A stretch of 64,000 bases of DNA from Bacteroidota bacterium. Lineage in GTDB: Bacteria; Bacteroidota; Bacteroidia; Chitinophagales; Saprospiraceae. This document shows, piece after piece, positions 40,650 to 59,612 of this stretch. The stretch is from NCBI GenBank assembly GCA_016124585.1, contig WGNL01000012.1:1-64000 (forward strand). Direction: 5' to 3'. The position numbers and the translations under genes were made by a program. Under the pieces are notes generated by a model, which saw only the letters and a list, made by a program, of their open reading frames with translations, was not told the origin of the DNA and searched no databases. Within the stretch, counting starts at the first letter, position 1, and the number at the start of each line of letters is the position of its first letter.

Positions 40650-43600
40650 TTACCCTCCAGCCCCTTCCTCCATTTCGATTTCTTCTTCCAATTCCAGCTC
40701 TGGTAAACTATTATCGAATGTTCCAAAAGCGCTGTAAACGACTTCATGAATTCGGCTTCTCACATTTTCTGTGAAAATCTTTCCGTTACGTGAACTTGGA
40801 TTTACCCGGTTCGAAAGAAAAACATAGACCAAACGCTGTTCTGGATCTACCCAAACACATGTTCCTGTAAAGCCAGTATGCCCATAAGTTTTCGGAGAAG
40901 CATGGCTAGAGTAAGTTGGGTATTTTCGTTTTACTGGCTTATCAAAACCCAAGCCACGGTGATTGGTGTACTTATTGGTCACAAAATCTTCAATGGTGGT
41001 TTTATCATAAAATTGGAGGCCGCCATAGCTTCCATCATTCAACAACATTTGAAACAGTACCGCCAAATCTTCGGCATCGCTGAAAATACCCGCACTGCCT
41101 CCAACCCCGCCCAATAATGCTACACATGGGTCATGTACTGTGCCTTGCACCAGTGTTTTTCGCCAATAATTGTCCTGTTCAGTAGGTATGATTCGCTTTT
41201 TAGGGAATTTTTCCAGTGGATTGAAAGTGATGGTTCGTAGACCAAGTGGACGATATATATTTTCAAAAACATACTCGTTCAAAGGCTTAGCAGTTATGGC
41301 CTCTACGACATCTTTGAGCAAGTAAAAGTTTACATCGCTGTATCTGAATTGAGGTTTCGATGAAACTGGAAGATTAAATACCCGCTTGCGTATTGTATCT
41401 TGAAAATCTTTCCGGAAGTAAAGGCCATCGGCAACCTTTACGCTGTAATTTCCCTTCCGTTTGCGACAGAAATAATCGTTGCAGCCCTTGGCAGGCACAT
41501 TTTTACCAGAAAAAAAACGGGAGAGCGGCATTTGTGCTTGGAGTCCTGACTGGTGAAGAAGAAGCTGTTTAATTTTGATTTTCCCAACGGCAGAACCGTT
41601 AGGCACGCTAATGTAGTCCTCCACTTTTCCATCCAAATCAAGTTGCTTGGACTGCACCAATTTCATCGCAACCATTGTGGTTGCTGATACTTTGGTCATT
41701 GAAGCAATATCATACAAATCATTGTTTTTTACCTCTTCCGCTTTTTTGCTGTAAGTGAAATGGCCAAAGCTTTTCGAAAAAATGACCTGCCCATCTTTCG
41801 CAATGGCAACTTGGCATCCTGGAAAAACACCGTTGTCGATAGCTGACTCAGCAATAGCATTGATACCAACCAAGCGTTCTTCAGAAATACCTACATCTTC
41901 AGCCTCGCCAAAAGCGAGTCGAACGGGTTTGCGGTTTATTGAACTGCCAAAAGCAAGGCTTTCGTTTATCGTGAGCGGGAGTTTTCCTGCTGCATTTACA
42001 CCTCCAAATAATAGTTGGGCTGCGTAGGACTCTGTGAATTTGTTCTTTTCAAAGATTTGCAGGCAACTAACGCTATTTGAAAAATAACGCAAGTTTTTAG
42101 GGTTGCCAAAATTTAATACGATGACTTTCGACTGCTCAGCCATTAGGTTCAAGCTTTCAATAAAAGACTTGTGAAACCCAGGTTGCAAGTCAATTTTATC
42201 CAGTACAACAACTGCCATAGGTTGTTTATCTGACTGCTCTATTTTGATTGGCAAAAGTTCGCCAGAAGCTGAAACTGGATTATCTATTTCACGAAAGTCA
42301 GCATACTTGGAAAACAGTTTTTCAAAATCCCTAAAGCTCTCTTGTGAATATTTAAATATTTGGAAATCAGTGTCGTAGATTTGTTTAAGGGGTAAATTTT
42401 CTTTTTTGTCCCGGGCGAGCACTACGGAGTTTTCGAATAATTTACCGATGAAAAAATCCCATCGAGGGTCTTCAAAATAACAGACGGCCCTATCCACATT
42501 CGCATCAAAATTTGCAGCTCTGAGTTGGACTTTGTGGACAATTTGCGGTGCCCTTTTCTCTGAAATAGAAACAAACTTTACGGGTTTATGTGTCAAGCTG
42601 TCGTGTGGGATTATCGAAAGTTTAACCGGGAGTTCCCCTCCATTTACCCATGATTTAGCGAGTAAAACTCTCCGAACCCTTTTGTCAAGGTCCAGTTCGC
42701 TGATTTTATCAGAGTCAATGAGTTGTTGAAACGCTTCAAAGACCCGTGTTGGATTCGTTGTGACCACCAGTTCTGCCCCAGCCAAAAGTTTCTTTTCTGG
42801 GGCCTCATCATTTCCTAATTGCATGGCCATCAAGCCTTTGAACCCTAAATACCTATTTAAATAGCTTCGAACGTATGAAGGTGGCAAGCTGCTTAAAGTA
42901 TCTTGATTGAAAATTTTATCACTGACCATCAAGCCTCCTAAACCCTTTTTTATTTGAGTCAAAAACCTATTCAAAGCCACTCTTCGAAGCGAGTCATTTT
43001 CATTGAATTCAAGCTTGGAAAAATTATCGCCAATTGCGAGTATCCGGTTGCTTTGGAGATTTCCATATAATCTATTAAATCGCTTCTCCAAGGCTATTTC
43101 ATCTCCCTCAAATGTCTGATAGTCAAATGTTTGTGAGGTAGAATCATCCATTTTGAGGGTTGGGCCAAATGTCAGGTTTATCCCCAACGCCTTTGATTCA
43201 TTAATCCATTTCTGTTCAAGGAAAATTGTCAAAGCTTCTGAATCAATAGCAGAAACTGAAGCGGGAAGAGGGAAGTTTTTAAGCCCAGAGAATTGGTTAC
43301 TCAACGAGACTTTTTGGTCAGTTGCAATGAACAATGGTAAGTTGCTGCTCCTCTGCAAGCTGTCAGTAGCGTACATGAATTCTGAAACACTGGCTTGGTG
43401 AATCAAAACACCACCTACCAGACCAACTGCTGTTTTTTCAAAAACCATTTGCTGTTGGAGCGAATCCTGAAGTGTAGCATCAAACAGAATAAGTTGTCCA
43501 ATCTTTTCATCCAAACTCAAGCCCGCCAACACGACGTCAACTTGAGCTGTATCTGCACCGCTGAAGGGTGGGATACCGGTCCCTGCCCTTCTCTTGCTGT

Positions 43601-43667
43601 GTTGGCAAGACATAGTTGCCAGCGTTAGCAGAAGCACAAATATTTGAATGAAAATTTTCAAGTTCAT
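40650..43667 (-). CDS. GH3-like domain fused to a serine beta-lactamase-type hydrolase, lipoprotein
   Basis: 1005 residues. The lipobox Ala-Thr-Met-Ser-Cys gives Cys21. Residues 40-345 follow NagZ-type GH3 beta-N-acetylglucosaminidases (LSLDEKIGQLILF, GLVGGVLIH, PLFIATDQ, GLGGLMVSD with Asp250 at the nucleophile place). However, the loop that carries the general-acid His (Lys-His-Phe-Pro-Gly-His-Gly) is replaced by ILAIGDNFSKLEF (209-221). A GH3 C-terminal-like domain spans about 370-575. Residues 595-1000 are a class C beta-lactamase/DD-peptidase fold with Ser656-x-x-Lys659, Tyr776-Ser-Asp and His930-Thr-Gly, so that half looks active. Fusions of these two domains are common in Bacteroidota and are thought to act on peptidoglycan. 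Here the glycosidase half is probably inactive or altered. Confidence 0.8.
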   Translation of the reverse strand: MNLKIFIQIFVLLLTLATMSCQHSKRRAGTGIPPFSGADTAQVDVVLAGLSLDEKIGQLILFDATLQDSLQQQMVFEKTAVGLVGGVLIHQASVSEFMYATDSLQRSSNLPLFIATDQKVSLSNQFSGLKNFPLPASVSAIDSEALTIFLEQKWINESKALGINLTFGPTLKMDDSTSQTFDYQTFEGDEIALEKRFNRLYGNLQSNRILAIGDNFSKLEFNENDSLRRVALNRFLTQIKKGLGGLMVSDKIFNQDTLSSLPPSYVRSYLNRYLGFKGLMAMQLGNDEAPEKKLLAGAELVVTTNPTRVFEAFQQLIDSDKISELDLDKRVRRVLLAKSWVNGGELPVKLSIIPHDSLTHKPVKFVSISEKRAPQIVHKVQLRAANFDANVDRAVCYFEDPRWDFFIGKLFENSVVLARDKKENLPLKQIYDTDFQIFKYSQESFRDFEKLFSKYADFREIDNPVSASGELLPIKIEQSDKQPMAVVVLDKIDLQPGFHKSFIESLNLMAEQSKVIVLNFGNPKNLRYFSNSVSCLQIFEKNKFTESYAAQLLFGGVNAAGKLPLTINESLAFGSSINRKPVRLAFGEAEDVGISEERLVGINAIAESAIDNGVFPGCQVAIAKDGQVIFSKSFGHFTYSKKAEEVKNNDLYDIASMTKVSATTMVAMKLVQSKQLDLDGKVEDYISVPNGSAVGKIKIKQLLLHQSGLQAQMPLSRFFSGKNVPAKGCNDYFCRKRKGNYSVKVADGLYFRKDFQDTIRKRVFNLPVSSKPQFRYSDVNFYLLKDVVEAITAKPLNEYVFENIYRPLGLRTITFNPLEKFPKKRIIPTEQDNYWRKTLVQGTVHDPCVALLGGVGGSAGIFSDAEDLAVLFQMLLNDGSYGGLQFYDKTTIEDFVTNKYTNHRGLGFDKPVKRKYPTYSSHASPKTYGHTGFTGTCVWVDPEQRLVYVFLSNRVNPSSRNGKIFTENVRSRIHEVVYSAFGTFDNSLPELELEEEIEMEEGAGG

Positions 43668-50666: not shown

Positions 50667-50695
50667 AAACCTGATGGCACTTTGTCATCAGGTTT
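50667..50695. terminator. Hairpin between mscS and the convergent T9SS gene
   Basis: AAACCTGATG (50667-50676) and CATCAGGTTT (50686-50695) form a 10-bp stem. Its 3' side overlaps the stop region of the minus-strand gene. The T run is weak, with TTTCATTTCATC following. Confidence 0.55.
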
Positions 50696-53600
50696 CATTT
50701 CATCAAAACCACATCCCCTTTTAACAATCGGGTCCTGCCGTCGATGTATTCGATTTCAGCCAACCAAACGAAAACCCCAGTTTGTGCGGGCAAATCCCTA
50801 AAATCGCCCTGCCAATGAGTTGAAGGATGAAATGGCGGTGCATTCCAAATACCAAATACCTGTTCACCCCAGCGGTCAAATACCAAAAACTGGTTGATTT
50901 TTGATACACTCTTACCAGGGTAAAGTGTGAAAAAATCGTTGATGCCATCCCCATTTGGAGAAAAAGAATTGGGAACATAAATATCATCCTCCTTATTTAC
51001 CACAATTTGGACGCTACTTTGTGCCAGACACCCTTTTTCACTAACAGCTTCAATTAAGTATTCAGTTGTGTAAAATGGCATGGCAACCGGATTTTGACAA
51101 TCATTGCAACTAAGCCCTAGCGGCGGCGACCACATCAATTTTGAAATTGGTAGATTAGCTTGTGCATCCAGCGTCACCGATTCCCCTAAACTAACTGTTT
51201 GGCTTTCACTTGCCGCCACTTCAAAAACTGGGGGGTCGGGTAAATAAACTTCGTGCCTGAGGGTACACTCAATACTGTCTTTTGCAATGATTTCATACAT
51301 TCCCCCAACCAATTCCAGCTTTGATTTTTGCTCCGAAAAATCACCGCCATCGTAGGAAATTCTGAACGGTTGAATTCCTCCATGCAAATCAAGGTGAAGC
51401 TCACCATTCCGCTCGCCATGGCAGCGGGGCTCCACTATTTCAACATCCATTTTAGGTTCCGAAACAATCAAAAAATGGCTGGAACTCGCCGTACAGCCCT
51501 CAGAATTACTGACGGTAACTTGGTATTCACCGCTGGTTTTGACGACTATTGACGAAGCACTTTCACCGTTAGACCAGTGATATTCATGGAAATTTCCTGC
51601 ACTTAACTCCGTTGATTCACCAGCACAAATCATAGTTTTGCCTGAAATGGAAACGTCCATTTTATGAGCTACTTTGATACTACAGACCGTAAAGCTATCG
51701 CAGCCATGTGTTGTTTGGCCTTGCAATACCATCGTTGTATCACTGAAGACTTGATGCCCCGCAAAGGTTTCTCCCCAGCACTGTGAAATATCAATTGGCA
51801 CCGTAACAATTGGCCAAACCGTTAAATGTGTATGAACGATGCTGTCGCAGCCCGTCACGACACTGGACAGCGTATCTAAAAGTATGGTACTTGCTTCGTA
51901 AAAATGACCCTTGAACGCAACACCCTCACATGTTTCTGCTAAAACATCAGTGGATAAAATCGGCCATACTTGTAATTGCAATGTGACCAAGCTGTCGCAT
52001 CCTTCCCAAGTCTGGTAGGTCTGAGAATACTGGCCAGGAGTGTTGAGCATTAAATTGCCGAATGAAAAAATTTCGCCTTCACATATCTGTGCATTCAGAT
52101 TTGTGACTGTAATTGGCAAAACTGACAAAGTAAGCGTGACCAGACTATCACAACCATTTTCAGCGATTAAGTTTTGCTGGTAAGTGCCAGGTGTATCAAG
52201 CTGCATACTTCCGAAGGGAAAAGAATTTCCTTCACAAATTTCAGCATTTAGGTTGGTGAATAATTTAGGCAATATTGATAGATTTAGCGTAACCAAACTA
52301 TCACAACCCGCTGGTGTTTGGAAAAGCTGTTCGTATTGACCCGGAGACGTAAGTTGTTGATTGCCAAATATATAAAAACCTCCTTCGCATATATTTTCTG
52401 AAATTTGCGTAGCAACTACTGGCAATACTGTCAGCACTAAAACCACTGCGCTATCACAACCCCAAAATCCAGTCAAGTCTTGTTGGTAAGTGCCTGATGA
52501 AGTCAGACTGTCATTCCCGAAAACGAATGAGCCTCCTTCACAAATCTCAGCAGAAAGGTTTGTAGTGGTTTGTGTAGCAATGCTCAAAGACAAGCTTACC
52601 AAACTGTCACAGCCACCAGCTGTTTGAAACATATGCTCATAATTCCCTGCCGTGGAGAGCATTTGCCCGCCAAAATCATAGTAGCTTCCTTCGCAAATTG
52701 TCGCCTCCAATTGTACAGCAATCATTGGTTCAACGACAAGGTCCAAAGTGACCAAACTATCACATCCAGCTTCAGTCTGCAAAAGCGCCTGATAAAAACC
52801 TGTTGATTTAAGTGCTTGATTGTCAAACCAATAACTACCACCTTCACAAATCCCAACTGATAAATTTGTAACAAGTTGGGGCAAAACCTCTAAGTGAAGC
52901 ACGGTGGTGCTATCGCAACCATTTACAGTGGTACCAGTAGCCACATAATCACCGCTAACAGACCGATGCTGTCCGTCAAAATAATAACTGCTGCCTTCGC
53001 AAATTTGCTCATTTAGGGACACAGTTACCTTTGGATGCACGGTTAGCTGCAGCGTCACGATGCTATCGCAACCGACGCTGTTCGTCAAATGCAGTTGGTA
53101 ATCGCCCCCCGAACTGATAGACTGGTTTACGAAGGAAAAACTTTCACCTTCGCAAATTTCAGCTTGAAGGCTAGTGTAGCTGGCTGAATGAACCGTCAAA
53201 TCCAAAGTCAGCAAACTATCACAACCATCAGGTGTGGCGAGCGGAATTTGGTAAATTCCCGAGCTTGAATACCAATTCCCTGCAAAAGGGAAACTCTCTC
53301 CTTGGCATATATTGACTTCCATAAATCCTTGATAAACAGGGATTTCAATCGTGGCTATACTTGAAACAGCCCGACAAAACGGTTCGTCCAAATTGACCAT
53401 TTCACCTGCCATCAACAAGCGGAATTTTTGGCCAGACTGCGCATTTTGAACCAAAATTGTTGGGCTGTTTGCACCTGAAACATTGCTCCAGCTCTGTCCT
53501 CCATCAAGGCTGGTTTGCCACTGATAAAAAGCATTTTGCCAAGGGTTTCCCTCAAAGTTTGGCTGCAAAACGAGGTTGTTGCCACAGCCCGAGACTACGG

Positions 53601-54273
53601 CTGGGAGTGTAATTTTGGGCCCACAAAAACGCAACGAAATATTATCCAATGCAAGGTCATTGCCAAATCCCCCTGGGGCATTGTTGCGAAGCGCAAATGT
53701 AAACTGAGGGGCACCTGCCGGGGCAGTGAAAGCGAATTCGTAGGTATGCCATTGCATATTCATCGGAATATCGCCAGTTGAGTACACCACATTGCCGTTT
53801 ATCAAGAAATCCACGTTTGGGAGAATTGCATCGGGGAATTGTGGCAAGAACAAATTGATGATGTCGGCTGAAAAAATATAGGGGGTATTTTCGCAAACAC
53901 TGACCGTGCGTTCATAGAAAATCCCAGGCGTGTAGTCAGCATTAACAACCATCATGTAGCCATTGCTGTCGGGGCTGTTGTCGCCGATGTCAAGCCAGAA
54001 AAGTTCCGCAAACCATGTCCAGCCATCCGTGCTGTTTGCGACACAGTATGCTCCGTCAACTGGAGGTGGTGTAGGCGTGTACCAGTAGCCAGGGGATATG
54101 CCAGGGTCATAGGGCAGAATATTCTCTGTTCCCGACCCAAGTGTGCCATCAGGAAAAACATTGGGGCCCAGTGCCCCTGGACAACTATAATTCTGCGAAA
54201 AAGAAGAATGCTGGAGCCCAAACAGACTGCAGCAAACAAGCGCCAATCGTAGTGTTTTCAGGTCGTAACTCAT
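50695..54273 (-). CDS. T9SS-secreted protein with 11 CEG/GCDS repeats and type B sorting domain
   Basis: 1192 residues, signal peptide in MSYDLKTLRLALVCCSLFGLQHSSFSQ. Residues 30-220 form a jelly-roll-like, carbohydrate-binding-type domain (YMMVVNADYTPGIFYERTVSVCENTPYIFSADIINL, NDLALDNISLRFCGP). An Ig-like segment (about 221-312) follows. Then come 11 tandem units of about 46-50 residues (about 317-868), each with Ile-Cys-Glu-Gly at the start, a Phe-x-Phe-Gly strand, and Gly-Cys-Asp-Ser-Leu-Val-Thr-Leu at the end, so two Cys per unit. A SprB-like repeat (NGELHLDLHGGIQPFRISYDGG) and the type B sorting domain (IYVPNSFSPNGDGINDFFTLYPG, VFDRWGEQVF) close it. Probably a long surface stalk or adhesin. 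Confidence 0.85.
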   Translation of the reverse strand: MSYDLKTLRLALVCCSLFGLQHSSFSQNYSCPGALGPNVFPDGTLGSGTENILPYDPGISPGYWYTPTPPPVDGAYCVANSTDGWTWFAELFWLDIGDNSPDSNGYMMVVNADYTPGIFYERTVSVCENTPYIFSADIINLFLPQFPDAILPNVDFLINGNVVYSTGDIPMNMQWHTYEFAFTAPAGAPQFTFALRNNAPGGFGNDLALDNISLRFCGPKITLPAVVSGCGNNLVLQPNFEGNPWQNAFYQWQTSLDGGQSWSNVSGANSPTILVQNAQSGQKFRLLMAGEMVNLDEPFCRAVSSIATIEIPVYQGFMEVNICQGESFPFAGNWYSSSGIYQIPLATPDGCDSLLTLDLTVHSASYTSLQAEICEGESFSFVNQSISSGGDYQLHLTNSVGCDSIVTLQLTVHPKVTVSLNEQICEGSSYYFDGQHRSVSGDYVATGTTVNGCDSTTVLHLEVLPQLVTNLSVGICEGGSYWFDNQALKSTGFYQALLQTEAGCDSLVTLDLVVEPMIAVQLEATICEGSYYDFGGQMLSTAGNYEHMFQTAGGCDSLVSLSLSIATQTTTNLSAEICEGGSFVFGNDSLTSSGTYQQDLTGFWGCDSAVVLVLTVLPVVATQISENICEGGFYIFGNQQLTSPGQYEQLFQTPAGCDSLVTLNLSILPKLFTNLNAEICEGNSFPFGSMQLDTPGTYQQNLIAENGCDSLVTLTLSVLPITVTNLNAQICEGEIFSFGNLMLNTPGQYSQTYQTWEGCDSLVTLQLQVWPILSTDVLAETCEGVAFKGHFYEASTILLDTLSSVVTGCDSIVHTHLTVWPIVTVPIDISQCWGETFAGHQVFSDTTMVLQGQTTHGCDSFTVCSIKVAHKMDVSISGKTMICAGESTELSAGNFHEYHWSNGESASSIVVKTSGEYQVTVSNSEGCTASSSHFLIVSEPKMDVEIVEPRCHGERNGELHLDLHGGIQPFRISYDGGDFSEQKSKLELVGGMYEIIAKDSIECTLRHEVYLPDPPVFEVAASESQTVSLGESVTLDAQANLPISKLMWSPPLGLSCNDCQNPVAMPFYTTEYLIEAVSEKGCLAQSSVQIVVNKEDDIYVPNSFSPNGDGINDFFTLYPGKSVSKINQFLVFDRWGEQVFGIWNAPPFHPSTHWQGDFRDLPAQTGVFVWLAEIEYIDGRTRLLKGDVVLMK
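51670..53325 (-). repeat. Eleven tandem protein-coding repeats (CEG...GCDS units)
   Basis: Within the 1192-aa protein gene, 11 units of about 140-150 bp recur, each encoding Cys-Glu-Gly and Gly-Cys-Asp-Ser landmarks. On the plus strand the recurring words are CTATCACAACC (coding Gly-Cys-Asp-Ser) and CCTTCACA (coding Cys-Glu-Gly). Units differ clearly at DNA level, so they are old; units 10 and 11 (CEGVAFKG, CWGETFAG) have diverged most. Confidence 0.75.
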
Positions 54274-54506: not shown

Positions 54507-57500
54507 TTAATTTTTTATCAATTTGGTAAAAAACCGCTGCTTACCTGCTGCCGTAATTTCTAGCCAGTAAACACCAGGACTGATATTTAAATCCTGCAAA
54601 CTTAGTAGATGGTGCCCAGCACCTAGTTTAGCTGTTGAAACAATCAGCTGTACCCGACGACCCAATGCATCAAAAAGTTCAATATCAAGTTCCGATGGCT
54701 CGCTCAATTCCAATTCTAAAGTAATATTTCGGCTAAATGGGTTTGGGAAAGCTTTGATAATCAACGGATTAACAACTAAATTCTTCGTGCTAGTCAGCAA
54801 GCTGAGATGTAAAGTCACGAGGCTATCACAGCCGTGTACAGTTTGAAGCGGCACTTCAAAAACGCCATTTTGAGTAAATATCAAACCACCAACCTCTACA
54901 AATTCTCCTGGCGCAATTGTATCAAAAAGTACCACTGACGCTTTTGGGAATACTGTCAAAATGGAAGTAGAAACAGAGTCACATCCAACGGGAAGCGGGA
55001 AAGTTTCCACAAAAATAGTATCCCCCAATACTTGGACACCATGAAAGAAATCGCCTTCGCAAAGCTGGTAATTGAAAACGGTTTCAACATGGTCAGTTAC
55101 AGTGATATTAGCTATGATTGTACTGTCACAGTTGAGTGTCCAAGTCGGCAAGACTGTGGTAACAACGGTATCATTGAACACTTGAATACCATCATAAGAA
55201 CCTCCCGCACAAACGTTTACGTCAATTTCAGTCGTAGAATTACCTTCAATGTAAACCTGACGAACCAAAGTATCCACGCCAATGCTATTTCCCACGATGA
55301 AAGTCACTTCATAATAACCTGCCTCCGGGAAGCTGACCGTTGGGTAACGTAAGTCAGATTCAGATGGAGAAGCCCCTGGAAAAAACCAATACCAGGACTC
55401 AGGATTGGAGTAACTGTTGTCGAGAAACTGAGCAATCGGGGCATTGCAATCACCATTGTGATTAAACCCAAAGACCGCAGTTGGTGCAGCATCAATGATG
55501 ACAGTTTGTTCATAAGTTGCTGTACCACAGTCGTTTGTAGCAGTTAATGTGACAGTGTAAGTTCCATTTTGGTAATAAACATAGCTGGGGTTGGCAGCCA
55601 TTTGACAAACGCCATCCCCGTAACACCACTCGAATTGTGTGCCTCCTAAGCCCATCGGATCTGCACTCAAGTTTACAAATTGAACAGTTGCGCCGTTAAT
55701 CACGGTCATAAAATTGGCGGTAGCAGATGGTTGAACGGTGATATAGTCGGAATATGTAGCTTCGTGTTCACCAGCTTGGTTGCTCACTTTTAATTTCACT
55801 TCATAGACTCCAGGTGTGAAATAACTGATAGCTGGTGGCGATTGTCCAAAATGGGAAGCAGGTGACCCTTCTTCGAAAGTCCATTCCCAATTATCTGGAT
55901 TACCAGTGGCGAGACTACTGTACTGCACCATTTCATTCACACAAATATTGGTTAAATCAGCTTCGAAAAATGCTACAGGTGGCATGAGCGTATTGTCTTC
56001 CCGAAGGAAAATAGGCGCTCCGGTCAGGGAAATATTATTGGGTGAAATGGACATCACTTGGCCTGTTTGCGAGTAATTCCAAGCCCTTCGTTGGAGTTGC
56101 CCAACATTCAAACTTGTAGGAAATGAATAATTTGCGTTTGCATTTTCCGTTTGGTCAGTCTCCGTTTTTGCCCAAAGTACATACACATATTTCCCCTCTG
56201 CATCGCTGAAAGCGGCCCCACCCACATTGACGGGGAGGTTCATCGCCTCCATACGTTGCTGGTTGTAATCAGTTCCAAAAAGAAGGTCAGAACAAGTCTT
56301 CAGCGCAATTCCTTCGTCGTTCACGGTTTGGTTGTAAGGCGTTACGCCTTCCATTTTTTGGTACAAACCCATGACTTCAAAGGCATCATTAGCCAACCAG
56401 ATATACTGGCTTTCTGCCAAGCGGAAAATATTCAGTTGCCGAATCTTATCCTTAACGCTCTCTACCCAAGCCTTGATAATCCAATTACGCTGTGCTTCCG
56501 CCGAGCCTAAGAAGCCATAAAAGGATTGGCGTGGAACATTGGCCTCACTGATAATCCATTCTTTTTCAGGCATTTGTGTGCCATCATAACCATAGTTGGC
56601 AAGCACCTCCTGAAACATTTGTTTCACTCTCGGTATGCCGCTCACGGCAGCATCGCTGTGTCGCTCATAGGCAAACTGCCCTGCATTCACATCAAAATAT
56701 TGGGTACTGCCATCGAAGTGGGGATAACTTTTGAAGCCAACAGCATCGAAATAAGCACCGCCTTTTTGCGGATAGGGGGAAGCAATTGAGCCATCAAAGG
56801 GGTTATCGGTATTTCGACAAACAGCATCAAGGAAGGACGGATAGGCAATCCCACTGATAGTGACATAGGCATCAGGGTCAAGGTAGCGCACGATTTCGTA
56901 AGCGATGCGGAGGCTTCGAATGTAGTAGAAAATCGGGGCTTTCAATTCATAATCGCAGGGGTCAGGATTGTTTTGCCACCAATTACCAGGTTCTCCAGGG
57001 GGCAGCCAGGCCTTGTCTCCAGTCAAGTCAAAGTCGGGAGAGTTATAGATTTCCCAAAACCGCACGTAGTCCTTGTAGTTGTTTACCGTGTTCCAAACGT
57101 ACAAGGCAAATGGGTTGGCCTCGTTGACTGGCGTGCCATTTTGGCCATTGTCCCAGATGTCGAGGTACAAATCTTTGAAAAGTGCACTTTGCAAATCAGG
57201 ACAGTAGTGGTAAGGGTCTCGGTTTTGCGAAGCAGGAAAAGCCAACAAAAAGCTATTGTCCCGCAGGTCCAGATTATTGAAATGCTGAAACTCAGCTTGA
57301 CGAGTATCATAGCCCAAATCGAGAAAAGCACTCTCTCCCGTGTAGGTGCGGACTGCCTTCACCCCTACCCCAGTTACCTCCCCGCCGCCGCCCAAAGGGA
57401 TAGGGGTGCCTGCGGCAATTTCAGCTTGTTGCTCACTTGTCCAATTTGGAACATAATCCCATGAAGTGCTAGGTCGGAACTTGCCCTTGAATACCGGGAT

Positions 57501-59612
57501 ACTATCGTTGGCTGTGAAGTCAAGCTGAGTGGTGTTTGGAGAAACGACACTTACTGAATGAGAAACACTGACAATTCCGCACTCATTGGTGGCCGTCAGC
57601 GTAACGTTGTAATTTCCGCTTTGAATATAAACATGCGTTGGAACAGCAGTATTGCTGGTCGTTCCATCACCAAAATCCCAAGTGAAACTGGTCAGACCGT
57701 AATTGGTTTGATTATGAAAATAAACGATAGGGCCAGTAATATCTGTTGTAAAAATTGGTGCAGGTTGCGCCGTTACGAAAAGGGTCTGGTTTTGCTCAGC
57801 AATGATTTGTCCAGCAGCGTTTTTTGCCTGTAGCGTCACCGTGTAAGTACCGGGATTGTTCAGCGTCATATTGGAATTTGCAGTAGAAAACGTGACAGGT
57901 ACGCCATTGGGCGTTTGTATTGTCCAAGCCCATTGCGAAGCACCTGTAACCTGTGAAGCGAGCTGCAACATGAAAGGCGCACAGGCGCTGTACTCGTTCA
58001 TGGTAAAAATGCGTTGCGTGTAAAATACAGGAGTTGCAGTCAGGGCGATATTTACCGAAGGAGAAAATACTGCATCGTGCGAAGTACTGGCGTCCCACTC
58101 ACATTTCAGCAAATTCTGAATATTCAAACTAGCTGGAAATGAGTAGGTTGCACTAGCTACTTCGCTCAAATCGGTACTTGTTTTTGCCCAAAGTACATAA
58201 GTGAAATTGCCATACTCATCCTTGAAAGCACCGCCTCCAACTGTAGCTGGCAACTGCAATTCCGACGTACGAACAGGGTCGAATATTTTACCGAAGAGAA
58301 TATCTGAACCTGTTTTGTGAGCGATGCCTTCATCATTCAGCGGCTGAAAATAACCTTGGTTGTAATCGAACCTTTTGTAGAGTCCCATCAAGTCGAACTC
58401 GGAGTATGCATTGTCAAATTCCGTGTCTTCAGCAAGTTTGTAGACTTGCATTTGCAGGATGTCGTTGGCCATGCAAGTAGCCATCGCTTTTATCATAAAG
58501 TTTCGTTGTGCTTCAGCTGAGCCAATATAATTTTCGTTAGTACCGGGCTCAGGAAAGGGCTTTCGGGGCAGATTTATTTCAGTGATAATCCATAGTTTTT
58601 CAGGATAAGTTTGACCGTTATAGCCGTAACTATCCAGTACGGCTTGGTAGGCATTTTTGGTTTTTAAAAGTGCATCGGCAGCAGCATCAGAATGTCGGGA
58701 ATAGACCCAGTTTTGGATGCTATCGCTGTATTCCCGCAAGCCACCGTCAAAGTGGGGGTAGCTATGGTAGCCCATCACATCAAAATAAGCCCCACCTTTC
58801 AGAGGGTAGGCAGCAGATATGGAGCCGTCCGCTGGATTATCGGTATTGCGAAGAATGGCATCGAGGAAAGATGGGTAACCTGTACCGGAAACAACCACGT
58901 AGGCATCAGGGTCAAGTGTTTTGATGATTTCCCAACTGATTCGAAGCAGTCGGACGTAGTTGAAAATAGGTGCACGGAGTTTGTAATCGCAGGGGTTGGG
59001 GTTGTTGTCCCACCAAGAACCGGGAGCGCCGGGAGGCAGGTAGCCAAGTCCACCAGTGTAGTCGAATCCAGGTTCGTTCCAGATTTCCCAAAACCGAACG
59101 TAATCCTTGTACATGCTTACCGTTTTGTAGAGGTAGGCGGCGTAATAGTTGGAATCGTTATAAGGGGTTCCATTAGCCCCACCATCCCAAATCGGGCTGT
59201 ACATATTTTTAAACAATGTGGACTGAATGCCTTGACAATACTGGGTTTCGTCACGGTGTGCATCACTGGGAAACCCAACAATGACGGTATGTTCACCCAT
59301 CCCGAGTTCAGCGTATTTTTGGAAAATTGGCAGGTTGGCATCGTAACCCGCCTGTTCAACATAGCTCTCGAAAATGCCAGGGCGCAGGGATTTTACACCA
59401 GCACCCAGCACGTTGCCACCTGTGGTTGCAGCTCCTCCAGCAGCAAGCAGCGCTAGTTGTTCTTCGGAAAAAGAGGTGTATTGGCCAATATTAGCAGCTG
59501 GATGAAAACCAAAAGGATAAGGTGTTACTTGGTTATTGGCCGTAAAATTCACTTGTGCTTGCAGCGTCGAAGCGAATAGGCAAGACAAAGCCAAAGCGTA
59601 AATTTTGGACAT
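54507..59612 (-). CDS. T9SS-secreted tandem glycosidase-like protein with PKD domains and type A sorting tail
   Basis: 1701 residues, signal peptide MSKIYALALSCLFASTLQAQ. Two homologous units of about 510 residues (about 21-530 and 695-1200) look like clan GH-A TIM barrels. Unit 1 has YVRFWEIWNEPGFD (acid/base Glu180), GYHSYPHFDGG (His283) and WIITEINLPR (nucleophile Glu345). Unit 2 aligns closely but reads YVRFWEIYNSPDFD (Ser858), GFKSYPHFDGS (Lys961) and WIISEANVPR (Glu1023), so it lacks the acid/base Glu. PKD domains sit between the units (about 615-692, FTWDFGDGTT) and after unit 2 (three copies). Three Cys-x-Gly...Cys-Asp-Ser repeats and a type A T9SS tail (KAFPNPFSRNITLELELSEP, SPGVYWLEITAAGKQRFFTKLIK) finish it. 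Likely an extracellular polysaccharide-acting protein; exact family not recognised. Confidence 0.82.
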   Translation of the reverse strand: MSKIYALALSCLFASTLQAQVNFTANNQVTPYPFGFHPAANIGQYTSFSEEQLALLAAGGAATTGGNVLGAGVKSLRPGIFESYVEQAGYDANLPIFQKYAELGMGEHTVIVGFPSDAHRDETQYCQGIQSTLFKNMYSPIWDGGANGTPYNDSNYYAAYLYKTVSMYKDYVRFWEIWNEPGFDYTGGLGYLPPGAPGSWWDNNPNPCDYKLRAPIFNYVRLLRISWEIIKTLDPDAYVVVSGTGYPSFLDAILRNTDNPADGSISAAYPLKGGAYFDVMGYHSYPHFDGGLREYSDSIQNWVYSRHSDAAADALLKTKNAYQAVLDSYGYNGQTYPEKLWIITEINLPRKPFPEPGTNENYIGSAEAQRNFMIKAMATCMANDILQMQVYKLAEDTEFDNAYSEFDLMGLYKRFDYNQGYFQPLNDEGIAHKTGSDILFGKIFDPVRTSELQLPATVGGGAFKDEYGNFTYVLWAKTSTDLSEVASATYSFPASLNIQNLLKCEWDASTSHDAVFSPSVNIALTATPVFYTQRIFTMNEYSACAPFMLQLASQVTGASQWAWTIQTPNGVPVTFSTANSNMTLNNPGTYTVTLQAKNAAGQIIAEQNQTLFVTAQPAPIFTTDITGPIVYFHNQTNYGLTSFTWDFGDGTTSNTAVPTHVYIQSGNYNVTLTATNECGIVSVSHSVSVVSPNTTQLDFTANDSIPVFKGKFRPSTSWDYVPNWTSEQQAEIAAGTPIPLGGGGEVTGVGVKAVRTYTGESAFLDLGYDTRQAEFQHFNNLDLRDNSFLLAFPASQNRDPYHYCPDLQSALFKDLYLDIWDNGQNGTPVNEANPFALYVWNTVNNYKDYVRFWEIYNSPDFDLTGDKAWLPPGEPGNWWQNNPDPCDYELKAPIFYYIRSLRIAYEIVRYLDPDAYVTISGIAYPSFLDAVCRNTDNPFDGSIASPYPQKGGAYFDAVGFKSYPHFDGSTQYFDVNAGQFAYERHSDAAVSGIPRVKQMFQEVLANYGYDGTQMPEKEWIISEANVPRQSFYGFLGSAEAQRNWIIKAWVESVKDKIRQLNIFRLAESQYIWLANDAFEVMGLYQKMEGVTPYNQTVNDEGIALKTCSDLLFGTDYNQQRMEAMNLPVNVGGAAFSDAEGKYVYVLWAKTETDQTENANANYSFPTSLNVGQLQRRAWNYSQTGQVMSISPNNISLTGAPIFLREDNTLMPPVAFFEADLTNICVNEMVQYSSLATGNPDNWEWTFEEGSPASHFGQSPPAISYFTPGVYEVKLKVSNQAGEHEATYSDYITVQPSATANFMTVINGATVQFVNLSADPMGLGGTQFEWCYGDGVCQMAANPSYVYYQNGTYTVTLTATNDCGTATYEQTVIIDAAPTAVFGFNHNGDCNAPIAQFLDNSYSNPESWYWFFPGASPSESDLRYPTVSFPEAGYYEVTFIVGNSIGVDTLVRQVYIEGNSTTEIDVNVCAGGSYDGIQVFNDTVVTTVLPTWTLNCDSTIIANITVTDHVETVFNYQLCEGDFFHGVQVLGDTIFVETFPLPVGCDSVSTSILTVFPKASVVLFDTIAPGEFVEVGGLIFTQNGVFEVPLQTVHGCDSLVTLHLSLLTSTKNLVVNPLIIKAFPNPFSRNITLELELSEPSELDIELFDALGRRVQLIVSTAKLGAGHHLLSLQDLNISPGVYWLEITAAGKQRFFTKLIKN

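Follow-up and report, generated by a model that had tools for sequence, protein, structure and literature searches.

On balance, we favor a reading in which a Saprospiraceae gene encodes a T9SS-exported GH-A hydrolase that pairs an active first barrel with a second barrel that has become a pseudoenzyme and is predicted to serve as its glycan-binding partner. The gene lies in a 64,000-nucleotide stretch of contig WGNL01000012.1, which we refer to as the window. Its two barrel units are related in sequence and arranged in tandem; the first retains a complete catalytic set, while the second has lost its acid/base Glu and a conserved His. Relatives in which both barrels are catalytically intact, together with others that share the loss, allow the history of the second barrel to be traced.

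Domain layout and catalytic residues

The protein begins with a probable signal peptide and continues with barrel 1, two PKD domains, barrel 2, an array of PKD domains, Cys-rich repeats and a T9SS tail (Table 1). The GCDS-type repeats between residues 1217 and 1616 were recognized by eye. At the C-terminus, TIGR04183 scored 44.1 bits against a cut-off of 23 and PF18962 scored 38.1 bits against a cut-off of 27. A C-terminal sorting domain that exceeds its curated cut-off marks type A cargo of the T9SS, and an earlier sequence-only reading of the protein as T9SS-secreted is upheld by both models.

Table 1. Coordinates of the tandem-barrel gene and its parts within the window
Feature	Positions	Strand	Remarks
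Whole gene	54507..59612	minus	1701 aa
Probable signal peptide, N-terminal hydrophobic segment, aa 1-20	59553..59612	minus	read from sequence
Barrel unit 1, aa 21-540	57993..59552	minus	catalytic set complete (E180, H283, E345)
E180 codon, putative acid/base	59073..59075	minus	PslG alignment
H283 codon	58764..58766	minus	His in 116/116 active barrels
E345 codon, putative nucleophile	58578..58580	minus	PslG alignment
Inter-barrel spacer, aa 541-694, PKD domains	57531..57992	minus	PF18911 + PF00801
Barrel unit 2, aa 697-1216	55965..57524	minus	without acid/base Glu and His
S858 codon	57039..57041	minus	acid/base Glu replaced
K961 codon	56730..56732	minus	His replaced
E1023 codon, nucleophile position	56544..56546	minus	kept here; altered in 6/22 clade members
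aa 1217-1616, PKD domains then GCDS-type repeats	54765..55964	minus	PF18911 + PF00801, three stretches
T9SS type A sorting tail, aa 1617-1701	54510..54764	minus	TIGR04183, PF18962

That the protein contains homologous barrels in tandem is confirmed by the 47% identity of the two units over 512 aligned positions (BLASTP E 2e-166), a likeness that, judged by this alignment, is far above chance. The motifs WEIWNEP, GYHSYP and WIITE of unit 1 carry E180, H283 and E345, and their counterparts in unit 2, WEIYNSP, GFKSYP and WIISE, carry S858, K961 and E1023. These residues had been picked out from the sequence, along with an identical spacing of 165 residues between the acid/base and nucleophile positions of each unit (345-180 and 1023-858), and we reproduced all of them exactly: unit 1 has the full catalytic set, and unit 2 is without the acid/base Glu and the His. 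Every entry in that residue list was right, but the list was short, as W178 is also replaced (by Tyr856) and so is T344 (by Ser1022). The positions of G245 and Y285 are likewise changed in the clade to which unit 2 belongs.

The linker between the barrels is far more regular than the region that follows them. Corrected to the model, the inter-barrel distance is 153-157 residues in 32/32 tandems, and this constancy holds at spacer identities down to 29-30%, whereas the region beyond unit 2 varies in length between 255 and at least 1373 residues. PKD domains were found in 31/31 spacers scanned and the PF18962 T9SS tail in 28/28 complete tandem proteins scanned. One spacer Cys, within an N-x-C-G motif, is invariant, and another near the spacer start is mostly kept. 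PKD domains vary little in length anyway, so the constancy of the spacer does not by itself imply that the geometry is fixed.

A Pfam search of nine neighboring open reading frames in the window found none of the usual genes of a polysaccharide utilization locus. Among 22 related loci, compared over short flanks, genes resembling the window's neighbors were found only next to five close relatives (L039-L043), and linkage over a longer distance may still exist. The next gene (window 50695-54273) encodes 1192 residues, in which ICEG...GCDS repeats are numerous and a CHU_C T9SS signal is present; the tandem protein has similar repeats just before its own tail, and a counterpart of this gene adjoins the tandem in L039, L040 and L042. 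Farther away, window 40650-43667 encodes a GH3 N-terminal domain (PF00933) fused to a beta-lactamase-type serine hydrolase domain (PF00144). Long open frames also lie antisense to the barrels, on the plus strand at window 58692-59456 and 56973-57464, and have counterparts in relatives; they are most simply explained as shadows of the conserved coding strand.

Family membership and distribution of the barrel

Direct searches did not assign the barrel to a described family. Up to E 1, neither unit had a match in Pfam, in keeping with the original remark that the barrel could not be placed in a known glycosidase family, and no NCBIfam glycosidase model matched the whole protein. In the PDB, phmmer with unit 1 as query gave no match up to E 1, and a profile of 30 relatives (A1) returned only four chance-level PDB rows, among them 5JVK at 0.72. 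Searched against Pfam, the 30 relatives yielded weak matches in one sequence each to GATase1_like (0.00058), GH44 (0.0046), GDH2_N (0.049), GH39 (0.1), LysM (0.17) and LRRNT_2 (0.34), which we took as chance or clan-level signals. A match of one distant relative (L124) to the GH5 Cellulase model at 0.00029 fell under the model's cut-off and was set aside.

More distant relatives from the barrel homologue search provided a bridge. Their alignment, A5, matched the barrel profile with an hhalign probability of 99.9 (E 5e-32), with the NEP Glu and later Glu of A5 coinciding with those of unit 1, and it was also matched by the unit 2 profile (E 3.9e-25). Against the PDB, A5 found PslG (5.1e-22) and the GH39 protein 5JVK (1.5e-19), then GH39 xylosidases and GH10 xylanases. 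A mixed profile (A6) reached PslG at just 0.0046, with a best stretch of 0.41; this weak alignment places PslG chain residues 139 and 250 opposite the NEP Glu and the WIITE Glu. By our own arithmetic, an offset of 26 turns these into E165 and E276, which PMC9075953 gives as key residues of PslG, and the proposed catalytic assignment is supported to that extent. Profile comparisons thus place both units among GH-A type barrels near GH39, with a kinship to GH39 that is distant; their putative (beta/alpha)8 fold derives from this profile homology to GH39 barrels. Membership of GH39 itself is not established because the Pfam GH39 model, PF01229, matched neither unit; this model had no match in the window's genome and matched in 2/14 control genomes. 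The barrel family would be a candidate new glycosidase family for environmental Saprospiraceae.

We found the barrel in 18/100 related genomes, and a strong match in 81/398 sampled Saprospiraceae genomes. A search across the order gave 27 genomes with a match, 10 of them outside Saprospiraceae, the matches listed having one barrel per open frame. Across the class, 6/395 genomes had a match, and among the matches listed only the window's own was a tandem. We counted at least 32 complete tandems, 19 active/pseudo and 13 active/active; these numbers are lower bounds because no more than three candidates per genome were scored in the searches of family, order and class, and 30 regions were selected for retrieval from the family-search matches listed.

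Several loci are of interest in their own right. The window's genome also encodes a single-barrel paralogue (G000:C27:90879-92435; L002, L070) with E/H/E and its own T9SS tail, adjoining a glycosyltransferase-like open reading frame. Outside the family, two adjoining single-barrel genes of 634 and 636 codons (G554:C1:285368-289018) resemble a tandem before fusion. In genome G101 (contig C290, L169:4-12692), two tandem genes share a strand and are separated by about 155 bases; one is active/active, with E/H/E in both units, and the other is active/pseudo, with S/N/A in unit 2. Relatives that are more remote but still full-length were found in records of Herpetosiphon, Polyangium, Parapedobacter, Pinibacter and Tannerella. 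Those in Herpetosiphon aurantiacus and Polyangium (L115, L119 and L122; 39%, 33% and 31% identity) come from predatory groups, and a link to predation, through degradation of polymers from prey or biofilms, is no more than speculation.

Loss of catalytic residues and conservation of the second barrel

From 155 aligned barrels we removed 5 fragments and 12 duplicates, leaving 138 distinct full barrels. The E/H/E set is present in 116/138, and both the acid/base Glu and the His are gone in the other 22; no barrel among the 138 has lost just one of the two. The pair of glutamates expected of a GH-A barrel, an acid/base in N-E-P and a later nucleophile, is thus present in unit 1 and in 116/116 active distinct barrels; unit 2 lacks the pair, having S858 at the acid/base position. 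The dead barrels come one per genome from 22 Saprospiraceae genomes with eight genus codes (g1, g12, g16, g17, g27, g47, g82 and g106). They are second units, with two that are cut by contig ends (L052 and L163) placed among them by the tree. First units are uniform: E, H and E are kept in 34/34 first-unit rows of our residue table, a table that as a whole still included two duplicates (L187 and L190).

The replacements vary. The acid/base has become Ser in 17 of the 22 dead barrels, Gly in 3, Ala in 1 and Thr in 1, so that the E-to-S change, which the sequence-only reading had suggested looking for in relatives, is the commonest form of a loss common to the whole clade. Replacement of the His is equally complete (14 Lys, 6 Asn and 2 Ser). 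At the nucleophile position, Glu is kept in 16/22 and Asp is found in 1/22, with Ala, Ser or Gln in the remaining five. The resulting triplets are SKE (12), SNE (2), GSA (2), SKD, GNS, SNQ, SNA, AKE and TNE. The pairing of an active barrel with a pseudo-barrel, first described as an unusual feature of one protein, is therefore real but common to 22 sampled genomes.

In a tree of 93 barrels built with the catalytic columns excluded, the 22 dead units form one clade (100/100), nested in a second-unit clade of 31 rows (99/99) whose remaining 9 rows are E/H/E. The matching first-unit clade has 29 rows (100/97), and five other active/active tandems (L177, L179-L182) fall elsewhere in the tree. Smaller trees agree, and in one of them the active second unit of L084 is sister to the dead units (100/94). 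Because the dead clade is nested among E/H/E second units, an active/active tandem lost the acid/base and His of unit 2 once. Parsimony requires one change at the acid/base, one at the His and four at the nucleophile. The tree therefore points to an active tandem, then a single loss of acid/base and His, and afterwards loss of the nucleophile on several occasions, which argues that selection for catalysis had ceased. Relatives with active second units had been named as a possible sign of a sequencing error in the window. Such relatives do exist, making up 13/32 complete tandems, but they mark the ancestral state. An error of sequencing or assembly as the source of the missing Glu can be dismissed with near certainty, as 22 genomes share the loss with several different replacement residues.

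The second barrel had also been described as otherwise well conserved, and this holds across the clade. The 116 active barrels share 54 columns with an invariance of 97% or more. The dead clade keeps 45 of these at 90% or more, and of the other 9, 6 are no more than two residues away from E180, H283 or E345 (Fisher 2e-5). Conserved aromatic columns remain at or above 80% in 20/23 cases, and other conserved columns in 69/83; the two proportions are similar, so the aromatics do not point to sugar binding in particular. Second units of the 22 genomes have no stop and no large deletion. Within the genus (21 pairs, seven genomes), dN of unit 2 relative to unit 1 is 0.76-1.18; with dS between 0.99 and infinite, close to saturation or past it, dN/dS values are rough. 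Over longer distances, the patristic ratio of unit 2 to unit 1 has a median of 1.20 (153 pairs, 18/19 complete active/pseudo tandems), against 1.00 in active/active tandems (28 pairs, 8 tandems). Mean identity is 55% among second units and 61% among first units, for genome sets that are not exactly the same. These comparisons indicate that the dead barrel is constrained nearly as strongly as the live one, with modest relaxation. The catalytic residues have been lost while selection keeps the barrel, as expected of a pseudo-glycosidase.

Possible roles of the second barrel

Under the reading that we favor, barrel 1 would hydrolyze a glycan by the usual two-Glu mechanism. Barrel 2 would go back to a formerly active copy in which the acid/base Glu and strand-6 His disappeared along a single ancestral branch; presumably inactive now, barrel 2 may be kept for a glycan groove that still binds the same or a similar chain. 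The substrate would be held near barrel 1 across a two-PKD spacer of nearly fixed length, and kinship with PslG suggests that it could be an exopolysaccharide. The dead barrel probably grips the sugar chain for its working twin, since the barrel is kept, its catalytic center is lost and a precedent exists in GH5.

Tandem GH-A barrels, some without a full catalytic pair, are known from the animal GH1 proteins lactase-phlorizin hydrolase and Klotho, which differ from the present case in both glycosidase family and host. For lactase-phlorizin hydrolase, PMC7658089 describes four domains, with activities in III and IV. The closer precedent is Rsi24C-GH5 of Clostridium thermocellum, which has lost its acid/base and binds crystalline cellulose, according to PMC3526467. 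Here too a GH-A barrel has been retained after loss of the acid/base, but Rsi24C-GH5 is an anti-sigma factor sensor and has no active copy of itself as a tandem partner. The same paper places two non-catalytic GH5 subgroups on long, fast branches, whereas the dead barrel described here evolves near the rate of its active partner. Unit 1 itself resembles the endo-acting GH39 proteins PslG of Pseudomonas aeruginosa and GH39wh2 (PDB 5JVK), with an aligning NEP Glu and later Glu; PMC6933502 describes these two as endoglycosidases with a large groove. PslG, however, is a single barrel, and unit 1 has no direct sequence match to it. Judging by titles and abstracts in the open-licence PMC literature, the tandem studied here has not been described. 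We tentatively propose, at less than even confidence, that the tandems represent an undescribed GH-A family near GH39 in which a barrel of an active/active tandem became a cis-pseudoenzyme in one step, with two PKD domains setting a fixed distance to its partner.

The main rival to glycan binding is a structural or allosteric role, in which unit 2 binds no glycan, shapes or steadies unit 1 or the display of the protein at the cell surface, and has its former active site filled by a Lys-Glu pair. The nearly constant spacer length is consistent with such a partner. So is the nucleophile position, which holds an acidic residue in 14/14 rows with Lys in place of the His and in 3/8 rows without it (Fisher 0.002), an association expected of a buried Lys-Glu pair. 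This association, however, comes down to one or two independent contrasts and is not significant once relatedness is counted, and a pairing of Lys961 with the leftover Glu is only a suggestion from the sequence. Conserved columns outside the catalytic spots also persist beyond what a plain spacer needs. We regard a structural or allosteric role as unlikely, although it deserves the most weight among the alternatives.

Unit 2 might instead remain catalytic by a different mechanism, in which Glu1023 would work with an external acid or a relocated one such as Asp860, or it might act on activated or thio-linked substrates. The acidic residue kept at the nucleophile position in 17/22 dead rows looks as if some chemistry had been retained, and position 860 is Asp in 19/22 dead rows versus 0/47 first units and active second units. 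A missing Glu is also not proof of inactivity: PMC6933502 reports activity for the GH39 protein CmGH1, in which Gln and Tyr occupy the two Glu positions. Asp860, however, is no special substitute, because many barrels combine Asp at position 182/860 with the Glu (39/71 single-barrel rows, two duplicates included). Further, the nucleophile is Ala, Ser or Gln in five rows, or six altered rows with the Asp, through at least 3-4 changes, which makes continued catalysis less likely; we give it a low probability.

The slightly faster evolution of unit 2 and its further nucleophile changes are also what might be seen in a decaying relic, kept just so that the reading frame reaches the T9SS tail, but this is quite improbable for a barrel that has retained 45 of the 54 invariant columns and a mean identity of 55% across 22 genomes, with no stop or large deletion and a dN within the genus equal to that of unit 1.

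Dead glycosidase modules are already known; here, homologous tandems allow active ancestor, live twin and dead copy to be compared, so that one can ask directly what an enzyme is kept for once cutting stops. The changes are few and located at the catalytic center, which makes the switch amenable to tests on single modules. Barrel 2, should it bind glycan, would be an enzyme turned into a binding module of full size. On the proposal of an undescribed family, living active/active and active/pseudo genes, side by side in one genome, would form a before-and-after series for the passage from an enzyme to a binding or control module.
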